Source: Methanobrevibacter sp.
GTDB taxonomy: Archaea > Methanobacteriota > Methanobacteria > Methanobacteriales > Methanobacteriaceae
Length of the DNA: 53,524 nucleotides
Direction of reading: 5' to 3'
NCBI RefSeq assembly: GCF_017940815.1
Contig: NZ_JAGAXX010000022.1
Span: 1 to 53,524 of the forward strand
Part shown: piece by piece, positions 7,896 to 31,737 of the stretch
Layout of the letters: every line of letters starts with the position of its first letter
How positions within the stretch are numbered: the first letter of the stretch is position 1
Position numbers and translations under genes: made by a program
Notes under the pieces: generated by a model
Databases searched by the model: none
Told to the model about the DNA's origin: nothing
Seen by the model: only the letters and a program-made list of their open reading frames with translations

Positions 7896-8747
7896 ATGAA
7901 AGCTGTAATTCCAGCAGCAGGTTTCGGAACCAGATTCTTGCCTGCTACTAAAGCACAACCTAAGGAAATGTTGCCTGTTTATGACAAGCCAACTATCCAA
8001 TATGTTATTGAAGAGGCTGTGGCTTCAGGCATTGATGATATTTTGATTGTAACTGGTAGAAATAAAAGGTCCATTGAAGACCATTTTGACAAATCATTTG
8101 AGCTCGAACAAACCTTGCAAAGTGCTGGCAAGGATGACAGATTAAAACAAGTTCGTGCAATCACTGACCTTGCAGACATTTGCTATGTAAGGCAAAAAGA
8201 GCAAAAAGGTCTTGGAGATGCAATCTACTGCGCTAAAAAACACGTTGGTGGAGAGCCATTCGCTGTTCTTTTGGGAGATTCAATCACTAAAGGACCTACT
8301 CCATGTACTAAACAATTGATGGATGTTTATGAAAAGTATGACGCTTCAGCAATTTCCCTTGAAGCTGTTCCAAGAGAAAAAGTGGAAAGGTATGGAATCA
8401 TTAAGGGAACTGAAGTTGAAAATAACGTTTACAATATCGAGAAGTTAGTGGAAAAACCATTGGCTCATCAAGCACCTTCCAATCTTGCAATAATGGGTCG
8501 TTACGTATTGACTCCGGACATCTTTGATAAGATTGATGAAACAGTTCCAGGTGTGGGAGGAGAAATTCAACTCACTGACGCGCTTCAAAAATTGGATGCA
8601 ATCTATGGTGTAACCTTTGAGGGCAAAACCTATGATATTGGTAACAGATTTGAATGGTTGAAGACCTCCATTGAGTTTGCAATGGATGATCCTGAATCCA
8701 AGGATGATTTAATCGATTACATGAAAGAAATGATTAGAGAAGCTTAA
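7896..8747 (+). CDS. galU: UTP--glucose-1-phosphate uridylyltransferase
   Basis: Makes UDP-glucose from UTP and glucose-1-phosphate in the cytoplasm, the activated sugar for glycan and glycolipid synthesis. The nucleotidyltransferase signature GFGTRFLPATKAQPKEMLP is at residues 9-27, followed by LLGDS (sugar-nucleotide/metal site) near residue 126 and VEKP near 188. The length of 283 aa is normal for GalU. A GGTGA ribosome site lies 8 bases upstream. galE (47355-48323) in the same window would act on its product. The aldo/keto reductase gene follows after 12 bases but shows no functional link. Confidence 0.95.
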   Translation: MKAVIPAAGFGTRFLPATKAQPKEMLPVYDKPTIQYVIEEAVASGIDDILIVTGRNKRSIEDHFDKSFELEQTLQSAGKDDRLKQVRAITDLADICYVRQKEQKGLGDAIYCAKKHVGGEPFAVLLGDSITKGPTPCTKQLMDVYEKYDASAISLEAVPREKVERYGIIKGTEVENNVYNIEKLVEKPLAHQAPSNLAIMGRYVLTPDIFDKIDETVPGVGGEIQLTDALQKLDAIYGVTFEGKTYDIGNRFEWLKTSIEFAMDDPESKDDLIDYMKEMIREA

Positions 8748-11695: not shown

Positions 11696-11810
11696 AGTAA
11701 TACTTAGTATATAAATGAATTTGAAAAAAGTAATACTTTTATATATTATGACTTTCAAATTATAATATAGTAATACTGAGTATTTAAATAAATTAAAAAA
11801 AAGTAATACT
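11696..11810 (+). promoter_or_regulatory. Duplicated promoter-operator upstream of the metal ATPase
   Basis: The 318-base gene-free stretch 11530-11847 holds a tandem duplication of about 48 bases beginning at 11696 and 11769. Each copy starts with AGTAATACT followed by TAGTAT or GAGTAT, then a TATA-like element (TATATAAAT; TTTAAATA at 11783-11790), then a second AGTAATACT exactly 33 bases after the first (11729 and 11802). AGTAATACT is a 4-1-4 palindrome. The boxes flank the TATA element and the expected start site, the usual layout for archaeal repression. The regulator is not known; metal control is an inference from the downstream gene. Confidence 0.7.
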
Positions 11811-11847
11811 TTTTACTATTAAAATAATTATTAAGAAGGTGTGTAAT

Positions 11848-13896
11848 GTGATTGATGAAATTACTGATTTTCTATTCAGCTTGAAAATGACCATTATTTC
11901 AGGTATATTTCTATTGATTGCAGTAATTTTTATGATATTTGGAATTAAAACACCTATTTACTTAGATCCCGCATGGGGAGCAGTAATAATAAGTGGTATT
12001 CCAATGTTACTTTTAGCAATGACCAGATTGATCCGTGAAAAATGGATTTCATCTGCGCTCTTGATTGCTATTGCAATGGTTGCATCACTATTGATTGGTG
12101 AAATATTTGCAGCCGGAGAAGTTGCATGGATTATGGCATTAGGTGCTCTTTTAGAAGACTGGACTGTCGAAAGAGCTAAAAAAGGTTTAAGAAACCTAAT
12201 TAACTTAACTCCACAGACCGGAAGAAAAATCGTCAACGGTGTTGAAGAGATGGTTCCTGTAGATGAGATTAAACTTGGGGACACTTTAAGGATTCTTCCT
12301 GGTGAAAGCGTACCTGTGGATGGTGAAATCATAAGCGGTACAACTTCACTTGACCAATCAATCATGACTGGTGAATCCCTACCTATAGATAAGGAAGTGG
12401 GTGATGAGGTATTCTGTGGAACAATGAATATGTACGGTGCTATTGACATTAAGGCTACAAGTCTAGGTGAAAACTCTTCACTTCAAAAATTGATTGACCT
12501 TGTTAAGGCTGCTGACGAAAAGCAAGCTCCTACCCAAAGGATTGCAGATAAATGGGCAACCTGGCTGGTTCCTGTTGCATTGATAGTTGCAATTGCTGCA
12601 TGGTTGGTAACCGGCAATATTGAAAGAGGAGTAACCGTTCTGGTTGTATTCTGCCCATGTGCATTGATACTTGCAACACCTACTGCTATCATGGCTGCAA
12701 TCGGTCAGGCAACCAAATATGGTGTATTGATCAAATCCGGTGAGGCCTTAGAAACATTAGGTGCACTTAACACTTTAGTGTTCGATAAGACCGGTACTTT
12801 GACTTACGGTAATTTAGAGGTTTCTGATGTTATCTCTTTAAATGACGATTTGACAGAATTGGATTTGCTTAAGCTCACAGCATCCTGTGAAAAGTTAAGT
12901 GAACACCCATTGGCTAAAGCCGTTGTAAATAATGCAAAAGAACTTGAAGTTGAAATCGAAGAGCCACAAGATTTCAAGATGTATCCTGGAAAAGGAGTAT
13001 CATGTATGAATTCTTATGGTAAGGTATATGCTGGAAACTCCAAATTTATCAGTGAAAACGGCATTGAATTCAATGTCGATAGCGATTTAGATAAACTTAA
13101 AAATGAAGGTAAGGCTTCAATCATCGTTGCATTGAACGGCATGGTTGTTGGTTTGGTCGGTTTGTCTGATGTGATTCGTGAGGATTCAAAGGGAATGATT
13201 GAAAACCTTCATGAATTGGGCACTGAAACCATATTGCTCACAGGAGATAACACAGAAACTGCTAATTACTTTGCTTCACAGGTTGGAATAGGCAAGGTTT
13301 TCGGTAACTTGCTTCCTGAAGAAAAGCTTTCATGGATTGAAAAGCTTAAAGGGGAAGGCAAAAAGGTATGTATGATTGGTGACGGTGTAAACGATGCGCC
13401 TGCACTCAAGACCGCTGACGTCAGTGTTGCAATGGGGTCTGTAGGAAGTGACGTTGCAATCGAGGCAGCTGACATTGCGCTTTTAGGTGACGATATCGGT
13501 AAGATTCCATACCTTAAGAAACTTTCAAATTCAACCCTATTCACAATCAAGGCAAATATTGCAATTTCAATGACAATCAATGCAGTGGCGATAATATGTT
13601 CTGTTTTAGGACTTTTAAATCCTGTAACTGGAGCTATTGTGCACAATGCAGGTTCCTGTTTGGTGGTTTTAAATGCTGCATTGCTTTATGATAGGCATTT
13701 CGACGATTCAATTAAAAAGATCGACACTGAAAATGTGGAACATTCCCACTATCACTTCCACAATGACGGTGAACACACTCACTCTCATGAAGGAATTGAA
13801 ATAATTGATGAGATTGAAACCGAAAATGGAATCAAGCATATGCACGCACACAAGCATGCATTGAACAGACAAAGTTGTGAACCGTATCACAACTAA
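11848..13896 (+). CDS. Heavy-metal P1B-type ATPase with His-rich C-terminus
   Basis: Membrane pump that moves a metal ion at the cost of ATP. Motifs in order: TGES (actuator domain), CPC at residues 269-271 in the transport helix, DKTGT with phosphorylated Asp313, HPLAKA (nucleotide domain), and GDGVNDAPAL. The last helix carries HNAGS. No N-terminal Cys-based metal domain is present; instead the last 60 residues contain many His (HSHYHFH, HTHSH, HMHAHKHA). This suits Zn, Co, Ni or Cd better than Cu, but the metal is not certain. Start GTG 11848 is chosen because AAGGTG lies 8 bases upstream; a GTG at 11839 would overlap that site. 682 aa. Confidence 0.9.
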   Translation: MIDEITDFLFSLKMTIISGIFLLIAVIFMIFGIKTPIYLDPAWGAVIISGIPMLLLAMTRLIREKWISSALLIAIAMVASLLIGEIFAAGEVAWIMALGALLEDWTVERAKKGLRNLINLTPQTGRKIVNGVEEMVPVDEIKLGDTLRILPGESVPVDGEIISGTTSLDQSIMTGESLPIDKEVGDEVFCGTMNMYGAIDIKATSLGENSSLQKLIDLVKAADEKQAPTQRIADKWATWLVPVALIVAIAAWLVTGNIERGVTVLVVFCPCALILATPTAIMAAIGQATKYGVLIKSGEALETLGALNTLVFDKTGTLTYGNLEVSDVISLNDDLTELDLLKLTASCEKLSEHPLAKAVVNNAKELEVEIEEPQDFKMYPGKGVSCMNSYGKVYAGNSKFISENGIEFNVDSDLDKLKNEGKASIIVALNGMVVGLVGLSDVIREDSKGMIENLHELGTETILLTGDNTETANYFASQVGIGKVFGNLLPEEKLSWIEKLKGEGKKVCMIGDGVNDAPALKTADVSVAMGSVGSDVAIEAADIALLGDDIGKIPYLKKLSNSTLFTIKANIAISMTINAVAIICSVLGLLNPVTGAIVHNAGSCLVVLNAALLYDRHFDDSIKKIDTENVEHSHYHFHNDGEHTHSHEGIEIIDEIETENGIKHMHAHKHALNRQSCEPYHN

Positions 13897-30189: not shown

Positions 30190-30474
30190 ATGTCAAAACT
30201 TAAAGTATTAACTCAAGATGATCTGGCTGAAATTTCCGACAAGTTCGGTGAAATTTTAGAACATGAAGTTTCAAAAGCTTTGCCTAGCAAGGAAATTGAG
30301 GATTTGGACTTGGACATCGTTCTCAATTATGAAAATGAGCAATTAGATGTCGATGTCGATGTTGGAGTCATGTTCGATGAGTTATCTGAAATCACACAAG
30401 ACCAAGTAATGAAAGCTATTGATGAAGCTTATTTAGGCTTTGATTCATTCATTGATGAGAATTACAGAGTTTAA
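30190..30474 (+). CDS. DUF3194 family protein
   Basis: 94-aa acidic archaeal protein matching the DUF3194 family, which regularly follows prefoldin beta. It has an N-terminal helix, then paired strands with LDLDIVLNYENEQLDVDVDVGV, then ITQDQVMKAIDEAYLG. Function unknown; the context suggests a role in protein or RNA quality control. No ribosome site is visible. It is the last gene before a 573-base gene-free region. Confidence 0.82.
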   Translation: MSKLKVLTQDDLAEISDKFGEILEHEVSKALPSKEIEDLDLDIVLNYENEQLDVDVDVGVMFDELSEITQDQVMKAIDEAYLGFDSFIDENYRV

Positions 30475-30494
30475 TTATTTTTTTTAAATTTTTG

Positions 30495-30536
30495 AGTAAT
30501 ACTTATATTATATTTTTTATTATATTAAGTAATACT
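30495..30536. promoter_or_regulatory. Pair of AGTAATACT boxes 33 bp apart
   Basis: AGTAATACT at 30495-30503 and again at 30528-30536, start to start 33 bases. This is the same palindrome and spacing as in both promoter copies of the metal ATPase. A TATA element (TATTTATAT, 30551-30559) follows the second box. Confidence 0.55.
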
Positions 30537-30582
30537 TTTTTATAAAAAAGTATTTATATCATTAGGGCCAACTATTATATAG

Positions 30583-30685
30583 AGTTTGGAGTAATCTCAA
30601 TAGCTTAGCAATATTAGGACAAACACGTAATACTATCTTTCAAATTCCCTCTTTCAATTACTTCAAACTTCACCTATTATTTTTT
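30583..30685 (+). ncRNA. Small structured RNA candidate 1
   Basis: No protein frame. A TATA box (30551-30559) stands about 27 bases before the proposed 5' end. AGTTTGGAGTAAT (30583-30595) pairs with ATTACTTCAAACT (30657-30669) over 13 positions, with one G-U pair, closing a loop of 61 bases. A T-run (about 30679-30685) after the second arm gives a natural end. Predicted RNA of about 100 bases. I recognise no known family; the two-box operator just upstream suggests it is regulated. The strand is inferred from the promoter and T-run. Confidence 0.5.
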
Positions 30686-30919
30686 TATCAATTTAACTTT
30701 ATCAATGTCATTTTATTAAATTTGGAATATTTTTAAGTCGTTAAAATCTTGCGTTTTACGATTTTTAATTTTTATTGGACAAATGTTAATTTTTATATGT
30801 TTGATATTATGTCATGTTTAATTATTTGATTAGTTTATTAAAATTTATATATTCAAGTATACTTTAATTTTTATAAATTATAGTAACATTTATATACTAT
30901 GCAAAATAACTTAATTAAT

Positions 30920-31033
30920 AGAGGTTCATAACGTAATCGTTATCGACTTAAATTGATCATTATTTTTATACTCGAGAGGGGCTGAAAAACACGTATGTTC
31001 CTCTCACCTCCTTAAGTTTTAATACTATTTTTT
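30920..31033 (+). ncRNA. Small structured RNA candidate 2 (or 5' leader of the HisA-like gene)
   Basis: A TATA box TTTATATA (30889-30896) predicts a start near 30920. The stretch folds as a multi-branch: closing stem GAGGT (30921-30925) with ACCTC (31006-31010), hairpin ATAACG/CGTTAT (30928-30943, loop TAAT), and hairpin GAGAGG (30974-30979) with CCTCTC (31000-31005) topped by AACA/TGTT. A T-run lies at 31028-31033. The HisA-like gene starts at 31048, so this could be a regulatory leader instead. No known riboswitch class is recognised. Between the two candidates (30686-30888) I see only AT-rich sequence. Confidence 0.5.
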
Positions 31034-31047
31034 ACTAACTATTTAAT

Positions 31048-31737
31048 ATGATTAAGAAAATTCCAGTAATAGATTTAAAACAACACCAAGCCGTAAGCGG
31101 CAAGTCAGGCATGAGAGACACATATCAACCATTAAAAACAGTTTTTGCATCATCTGCAAATCCAGTTGAAATCGCACAGGGATTGAAGCTTAACGGTGCA
31201 GACGAGATGTACATTGCAGACCTTGACTTGATTGAGTCACAGGGCCACAACATAAACGACATCAAGATGGTAAACACAATAATTCCTGTAATATTTGATG
31301 GTGGAGTCAAGAACCTTGAAGGGTTCGAATTCTTCCTTGACTATGCATACAAGGTAATCGTTCCGACAGAAACATTGGAAAGCATCGATGAGCTTAGAAA
31401 AATATTCGAAAAGTATCCTAAGGAAAGGATTGTAGTGAGCGTTGACACTAAAAACAATGAACTGCTTGCAAAAAACATGGACTTGACATTGTCTGAATTC
31501 AGAGACATTCTTGTTGAGCTTGATCCAAATGACATAATCCTTTTGGACATTACTGGTGTCGGTACAGAAAAAGGCTACAATGAATATCTACTTAATGAAT
31601 TTGCTGATTTAAAAGATAAATTAATTATTGCTGGTGGTTTGAATAAAGAATCTCTAGGTGAGTTGGATTCTTTAGGTATAAAAAGAGTGTTGATAGGAAC
31701 TAGCCTACATTCTGGTGAAGTTAAACTTCTAGATTAA
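31048..31737 (+). CDS. HisA/HisF-like TIM-barrel protein
   Basis: 229-aa barrel related to phosphoribosylformimino-AICAR isomerase but distinct from true HisA (archaeal COG1411-like group). VIDLKQHQAVSG, ADEMYIADLDLI and IPVIFDGGVKN match the barrel strands, and IIAGGLNKES plus VLIGTSLHSG carry the two phosphate-binding Gly motifs. It probably acts on a sugar phosphate or related compound; the reaction is not established. No ribosome site precedes the ATG. Its upstream sequence is the structured candidate RNA 2. Confidence 0.78.
   Translation: MIKKIPVIDLKQHQAVSGKSGMRDTYQPLKTVFASSANPVEIAQGLKLNGADEMYIADLDLIESQGHNINDIKMVNTIIPVIFDGGVKNLEGFEFFLDYAYKVIVPTETLESIDELRKIFEKYPKERIVVSVDTKNNELLAKNMDLTLSEFRDILVELDPNDIILLDITGVGTEKGYNEYLLNEFADLKDKLIIAGGLNKESLGELDSLGIKRVLIGTSLHSGEVKLLD

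Follow-up and report, generated by a model that had tools for sequence, protein, structure and literature searches.

The gap between the DUF3194 gene, which ends at 30474, and a gene of the HisA/HisF family, which starts at 31048, contains what we predict to be the gene of a trans-acting small RNA (sRNA) of ∼100 nt, specific to the genus Methanobrevibacter, that would be made at nickel limitation and block translation of frhA, the gene for the large subunit of the F420-reducing [NiFe]-hydrogenase, most likely under the control of NikR. We give this reading a probability of roughly 0.8. It stands on conservation, regulatory boxes shared with other genes, an exact antisense match and a compensatory change, all of which can be read in the DNA itself; transcription, the response to nickel, the role of NikR and a repressive effect are inferred only. 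Because the promoter boxes are common to nickel-uptake genes and the loop is antisense to frhA, the sRNA probably saves nickel when it is scarce. Coordinates refer to the window, the whole 53,524-nt stretch that was analysed, part of a genome of 2.03 Mb assembled in 88 contigs. The features concerned are:

30495–30503, + strand: upstream regulatory box AGTAATACT, the first of a pair 33 bp apart (sequence check and genome box count)
30528–30536, + strand: second AGTAATACT box (sequence check)
30528–30558, + strand: second box with a 24-bp palindrome overlapping the BRE/TATA region (AGTAATACTTTTTTATAAAAAAGTATTTATA)
30553–30558, + strand: TATA box TTTATA, within TATTTATAT at 30551–30559, conserved in the genus alignment
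30580–30687, + strand: predicted sRNA gene, conserved in the genus; start (∼25 nt past the TATA box) and end (T-run) inferred
30582–30595, + strand: left arm of the clamp stem, GAGUUUGGAGUAAU (folding and stem alignment)
30598–30611, + strand: conserved left loop CAAUAGCUUAGCAA, no function established (alignment)
30633–30645, + strand: antisense seed CUAUCUUUCAAAU, complementary at every position to AUUUGAAAGAUAG in the frhA start region
30646–30651, + strand: UCCCUC, facing the frhA Shine-Dalgarno GAGGUGA
30657–30670, + strand: right arm of the clamp stem, AUUACUUCAAACUU (folding and stem alignment)
30681–30687, + strand: T-run, presumed termination (sequence check)

A sequence-only reading of this DNA had already named TATTTATAT, the T-run and both AGTAATACT boxes, each of which lies where it had been placed, together with an inverted repeat (AGTTTGGAGTAAT, 30583–30595, with ATTACTTCAAACT, 30657–30669) that we confirmed and that here forms part of a stem of 14 pairs. 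It had also proposed a structured RNA of ∼100 nt that has a promoter and a closing stem of its own, and comparative evidence supports an unlisted, structured RNA at about 30580–30685, its independent transcription being inferred. A perfect 24-bp palindrome (AATACTTTTTTATAAAAAAGTATT, 30531–30554) overlaps the promoter. Of 60 genus genomes, 49 carry the AGTAATACTTTTTTATAAAAAAGTATTTATA promoter element, mostly in a single copy and with few exceptions 5′ of the sRNA. The intergenic region can be aligned across most of the genus, and the alignment gives the order of the conserved unit as palindromic promoter, GUUUGAAGUAAU, loop, AUUACUUCAAAC. The predicted sRNA ends in a U-rich 3′ sequence, for which no Hfq/Lsm binding data exist. 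In some relatives (loci L009, L014, L015 and L017) the stem is separated from the promoter by ∼50 additional bases (TTGTGCAA...), by which the sRNA appears to be extended at its 5′ end.

The gap had further been described as a gene-free region of 573 bases; this length is correct, but the sRNA is not alone in it. Another conserved, RNA-like element occupies about 30888–31020 (+ strand), with a strong promoter (TTTATATACTATG), an invariant AAATTGATCATTATT and a hairpin (GAGAGGGGC.../...GTTCCTCTC) whose arms co-vary across relatives, followed by an anti-Shine-Dalgarno-like CACCTCCTT. This element had no match in Rfam.

The predicted fold of the single sRNA sequence (−14.4 kcal/mol, z −2.1) was matched by 8 of 200 shuffles, only a moderate advantage over chance, and comparison across genomes was therefore needed. 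Across 29 aligned sequences the clamp stem pairs in 98.7% of cells, against 30–55% when the arms are slid by 1–3 columns. Absence of the stem from other Methanobrevibacter genomes would have refuted the proposal of an RNA; the stem proved to be conserved. Compensatory changes in it, which the sequence-only reading had named as a check, are represented by one pair altered on both sides, but covariation is otherwise slight because the stem is nearly invariant in sequence (6 of 11 pairs do not vary at all). A search with a covariance model detected the sRNA in 51 of 67 genus genomes and in none of the 84 taken from elsewhere in the order; all records with a name and an identical seed are Methanobrevibacter. 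The earlier suggestion that no known family fits was borne out: Rfam 15 gave no match in region 30450–31070 up to E = 5, and at the gathering threshold its only hit in the whole window was a tRNA elsewhere. Within the loop, the seed CUAUCUUUCAAAU is predicted to be 88% unpaired. A switch that would pair the left arm GAGUUUGAAG with CUUUCAAAUUC is possible on paper and is not favoured in that predicted ensemble. The left loop is almost invariant in the main lineage; a search for its targets gave no excess over control, and we found neither a structure nor a target that would account for its conservation.

The predicted sRNA and its promoter form an independent unit. They are missing from this locus in G007 and G025, where they adjoin nikD/nikE-like ATPases instead; G017 has them at both loci. 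Further copies occur in G011 and G034 (the latter presumably M. smithii), one of them near nikR. These displaced copies, each with its promoter, count against a cis-acting leader or riboswitch of the HisA-like gene, as do the ∼375 bases and the second promoter-like element that intervene. G011 and G034 each hold, in addition, a third RNA with the same promoter, a GUUUGAA/UUCAAAC clamp and an unrelated loop, GCUCAGCUGUGUUAUCUUGGG (L102 ∼1523–1660 and L104 ∼1516–1650).

All 13 nt of the seed, the most conserved segment of the loop, are complementary to the frhA start region (within GAGGUGACAUAUUUGAAAGAUAG), its UUG start codon included; on the 3′ side of the seed, UCCCUC lies opposite the frhA Shine-Dalgarno. 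This match was found post hoc, by reading the gene starts of nickel enzymes after a blind search with the pattern GAGGG plus seed had failed (18 matches against 18 in the control, with frhA missed), which left some freedom of choice. For this reason shuffled sequences, a background of gene starts and compensatory changes were all checked. Among 186 gene starts of the window's genome, frhA gave the longest Watson–Crick helix (13, the next being 11), and only 7 of 20,000 dinucleotide shuffles of the sRNA reached a 13-nt match to frhA. These starts come from part of the genome, so the result is not a genome-wide ranking. RNAduplex energies computed over whole loops were uninformative, ranking frhA sixth, since their scores were inflated by long interior loops; the length of contiguous helix served as the measure instead.

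The decisive point for frhA as the putative target is a compensatory change in M. smithii-type genomes. The frhA start sequence, recovered in 53 of 67 genomes, differs in G034 and G011, where it reads AAAGACAGAATAGTTATAT (in AAAGACAGAAUAGUUAUAU), and the sRNA copy on the nikR side of these genomes reads AUAUAACUAUUCUGUCUUU; the two can form 19 contiguous Watson–Crick pairs, or 22 with G–U pairs, an extent not reached by any of 5,000 shuffles. The copies in G025 and G010 pair with frhA over 16 nt and over 19 nt including G–U, respectively, and millerae-type copies form 14 pairs including G–U. Pairing is weaker in G021, G013 and M. smithii copies 1 and 3. A tentative extension, which we regard as somewhat less than an even bet, is that the sRNA belongs to a modular nickel-regulon family in which a constant promoter and clamp (GUUUGAAG.../...CUUCAAAC) would carry exchangeable antisense loops for the mRNAs of different nickel enzymes. 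If so, three members would be expected in M. smithii-type genomes, one of them fitted to frhA by 19–22 pairs and the other two to mRNAs yet to be identified.

The suggestion that the AGTAATACT pair is regulatory is supported by its occurrence in a small nickel-type regulon. Paired boxes of the form GTAWTACT-N(11–26)-GTAWTAC number 11 in the window's genome, whereas the reversed control gives 0–1; five relatives yield similar counts. All 11 exact sites fall at six promoters, named from family searches:

promoter 1: a NikA/Opp-type transporter operon
promoter 2: divergent nicotianamine-synthase-like (NAS) and GNAT genes
promoter 3: cbiM/nikM
promoter 4: hmd, for the nickel-free [Fe]-hydrogenase, with the cofactor gene hcgG
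promoter 5: a P1B heavy-metal ATPase in the window (11839–13896), with two pairs of the same boxes 5′ of it at 11697–11809, + strand
promoter 6: the sRNA itself

The nicotianamine-synthase/CntL-like gene (L156, 7151–7978, − strand) has three overlapping paired boxes at 8050–8147, and its place under the boxes suggests that the methanogen makes a nickel-chelating metallophore. The P1B ATPase has a histidine-rich tail. It is an odd member of the group: an exporter would not suit a low-nickel regulon and, if that is its role, it counts against the nickel-limitation reading. A GTATTA-N-GTAATAC-like site also lies upstream of a mer-like gene of the same genome (L158, ∼1550–1590), which we take, by eye from its sequence, to encode F420-dependent methylene-H4MPT reductase.

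NikR is most likely the protein that binds these boxes, an inference made without binding data. A search of 37 genomes found nikR in 35 of them, and GTAATAC-N14-GTATTTA at 30529–30556 fits the spacing of NikR-like half-sites, although most paired boxes are 31–33 bp apart, wider than is canonical. Published NikR signals have the form GTGTTAC-N13/14-GTAACAC, and the reversed half-site order has also been reported; the sRNA promoter resembles them in spacing, including that reversed order (PMC545781).

Two features expected of a metal-sparing trans-acting sRNA, as a functional class of the RyhB type, are present here: the promoter falls within a metal-uptake regulon, through boxes shared with nikA, NAS, cbiM/nikM, hmd/hcgG and the P1B ATPase, and the loop is complementary to the start region of the mRNA of a nickel-using enzyme, through the 13-nt frhA match and its compensatory change. 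In the mechanism we propose, low nickel would cause a metal-loaded repressor, most likely NikR, to leave the AGTAWTACT boxes overlapping the TATA box, and the sRNA would then be transcribed. Its near-invariant clamp stem would present an open loop, whose pairing with the frhA mRNA would cover both the UUG start codon and the Shine-Dalgarno and so block translation. Less F420-reducing [NiFe]-hydrogenase would be made and nickel saved, while nickel uptake, and Hmd in the genomes that have this nickel-free hydrogenase, would be induced through the same regulon. In Methanothermobacter under nickel limitation Hmd substitutes for Frh, hmd going up and frh down (PMC3087415). The presence of the sRNA shows no association with that of hmd, and at least nine fairly complete genomes have the sRNA without hmd; an exchange of Frh for Hmd therefore cannot be the sole reason for the sRNA. 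The frh change in Methanothermobacter was reported at the transcript level (PMC3087415), so control of transcription could also be involved.

Several other explanations have to be set against this one. Possible, though doubtful, is that the sRNA is nickel-regulated and trans-acting but acts on several mRNAs, frhA among them, or mainly on an mRNA other than frhA, with the left loop and CCCUC directed at ehaO, ehbN, mcrB or others. In three genomes the conserved left loop (CAAUAGCUU) finds a 9-nt match upstream of ehaO, ribosome-binding sites reading GAGGGAA are possible partners of UUCCCUC, and some sRNA copies have no good frhA match. However, 9-nt matches occur in ∼8% of background gene starts, so that the ehaO match does not go beyond chance; the left loop lacks any excess of targets, and frhA is clearly the best match for the sRNA. 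We consider it unlikely that a metal regulator other than NikR, such as a sensor of cobalt or zinc or another nickel sensor, binds the boxes, with the sRNA answering some other signal. NCBIfam names CbiM a cobalt transporter, NAS/CntL metallophores carry several metals and the box spacing of 31–33 bp differs from that of classical NikR sites; a proposal that one Methanothermobacter NikR homologue responds to zinc also lends this some weight (PMC3087415). Against this, hmd and hcgG carry the same boxes and hmd is nickel-regulated in a relative (PMC3087415), the half-sites resemble those of NikR (PMC545781), and in two genomes a copy of the sRNA lies near nikR.

The two remaining possibilities concern the sign of regulation and the existence of a transcript. 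Extended antisense can protect an mRNA, and since pairing alone leaves the sign of regulation unfixed, the sRNA might promote frhA expression, for instance by stabilizing its message. We think this very improbable: the predicted pairing spans both start codon and Shine-Dalgarno, masking of the ribosome-binding site has an archaeal precedent in sRNA162 (PMC3510493), and frh falls under nickel limitation in a relative (PMC3087415). The near-invariant stem with its slight covariation, the palindromic promoter and the changed position of the element in a few genomes would also suit a DNA element (an operator palindrome with an inverted repeat) or a mobile repeat that is not transcribed. This is barely tenable, however, since most genomes have a single copy at one locus and the conserved unpaired loop is, on one strand, exactly antisense to frhA, with a compensatory change.

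A nickel-sparing RNA that represses frhA, if this reading is correct, would be a metal-sparing sRNA in an archaeon; we found none in the open-access literature, subscription papers being outside the search. In the dominant methanogens of gut and rumen it would tie the choice of hydrogenase to nickel supply, and the drop in F420-reducing hydrogenase that has been reported at low nickel could then arise after transcription. Since the prediction specifies every base, it is open to a direct test in M. smithii, which apparently has three copies in its genome. RyhB is a Fur-regulated, iron-sparing sRNA of bacteria, with functional analogues such as IsrR. These are likewise under a metal-uptake regulon and pair near the start codons of metal-enzyme mRNAs, as predicted here; the sRNA described here differs in being archaeal, in concerning nickel rather than iron, in its closed clamp stem with an open loop, and in having no sequence relation to them, in keeping with the lack of any Rfam match. 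Nickel sRNAs reported in bacteria are NikS, controlled by NikR, and s-SodF, controlled by Nur (PMC9294342). NikS (HPnc4160) of Helicobacter pylori controls colonization and virulence factors (PMC9294342, PMC8035401); it shares with our sRNA a nickel-responsive control, here probably by NikR, but its targets do not serve the sparing of nickel enzymes, it belongs to another domain of life and we claim no homology. The s-SodF RNA of Streptomyces coelicolor is similar as a nickel-dependent RNA that represses a nickel isozyme at low nickel, but is processed from the sodF 3′ untranslated region within the Nur regulon, whereas the sRNA here would be a free-standing gene with its own promoter. Methanosarcina mazei sRNA162 is, like ours, an archaeal trans-acting RNA, in which a single-stranded region masks a ribosome-binding site, but it is tied to the switch between methanol and methylamine and differs in structure, genus and targets (PMC3510493). 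Our best reading is that the sRNA functions like RyhB or NikS and belongs to no described family.
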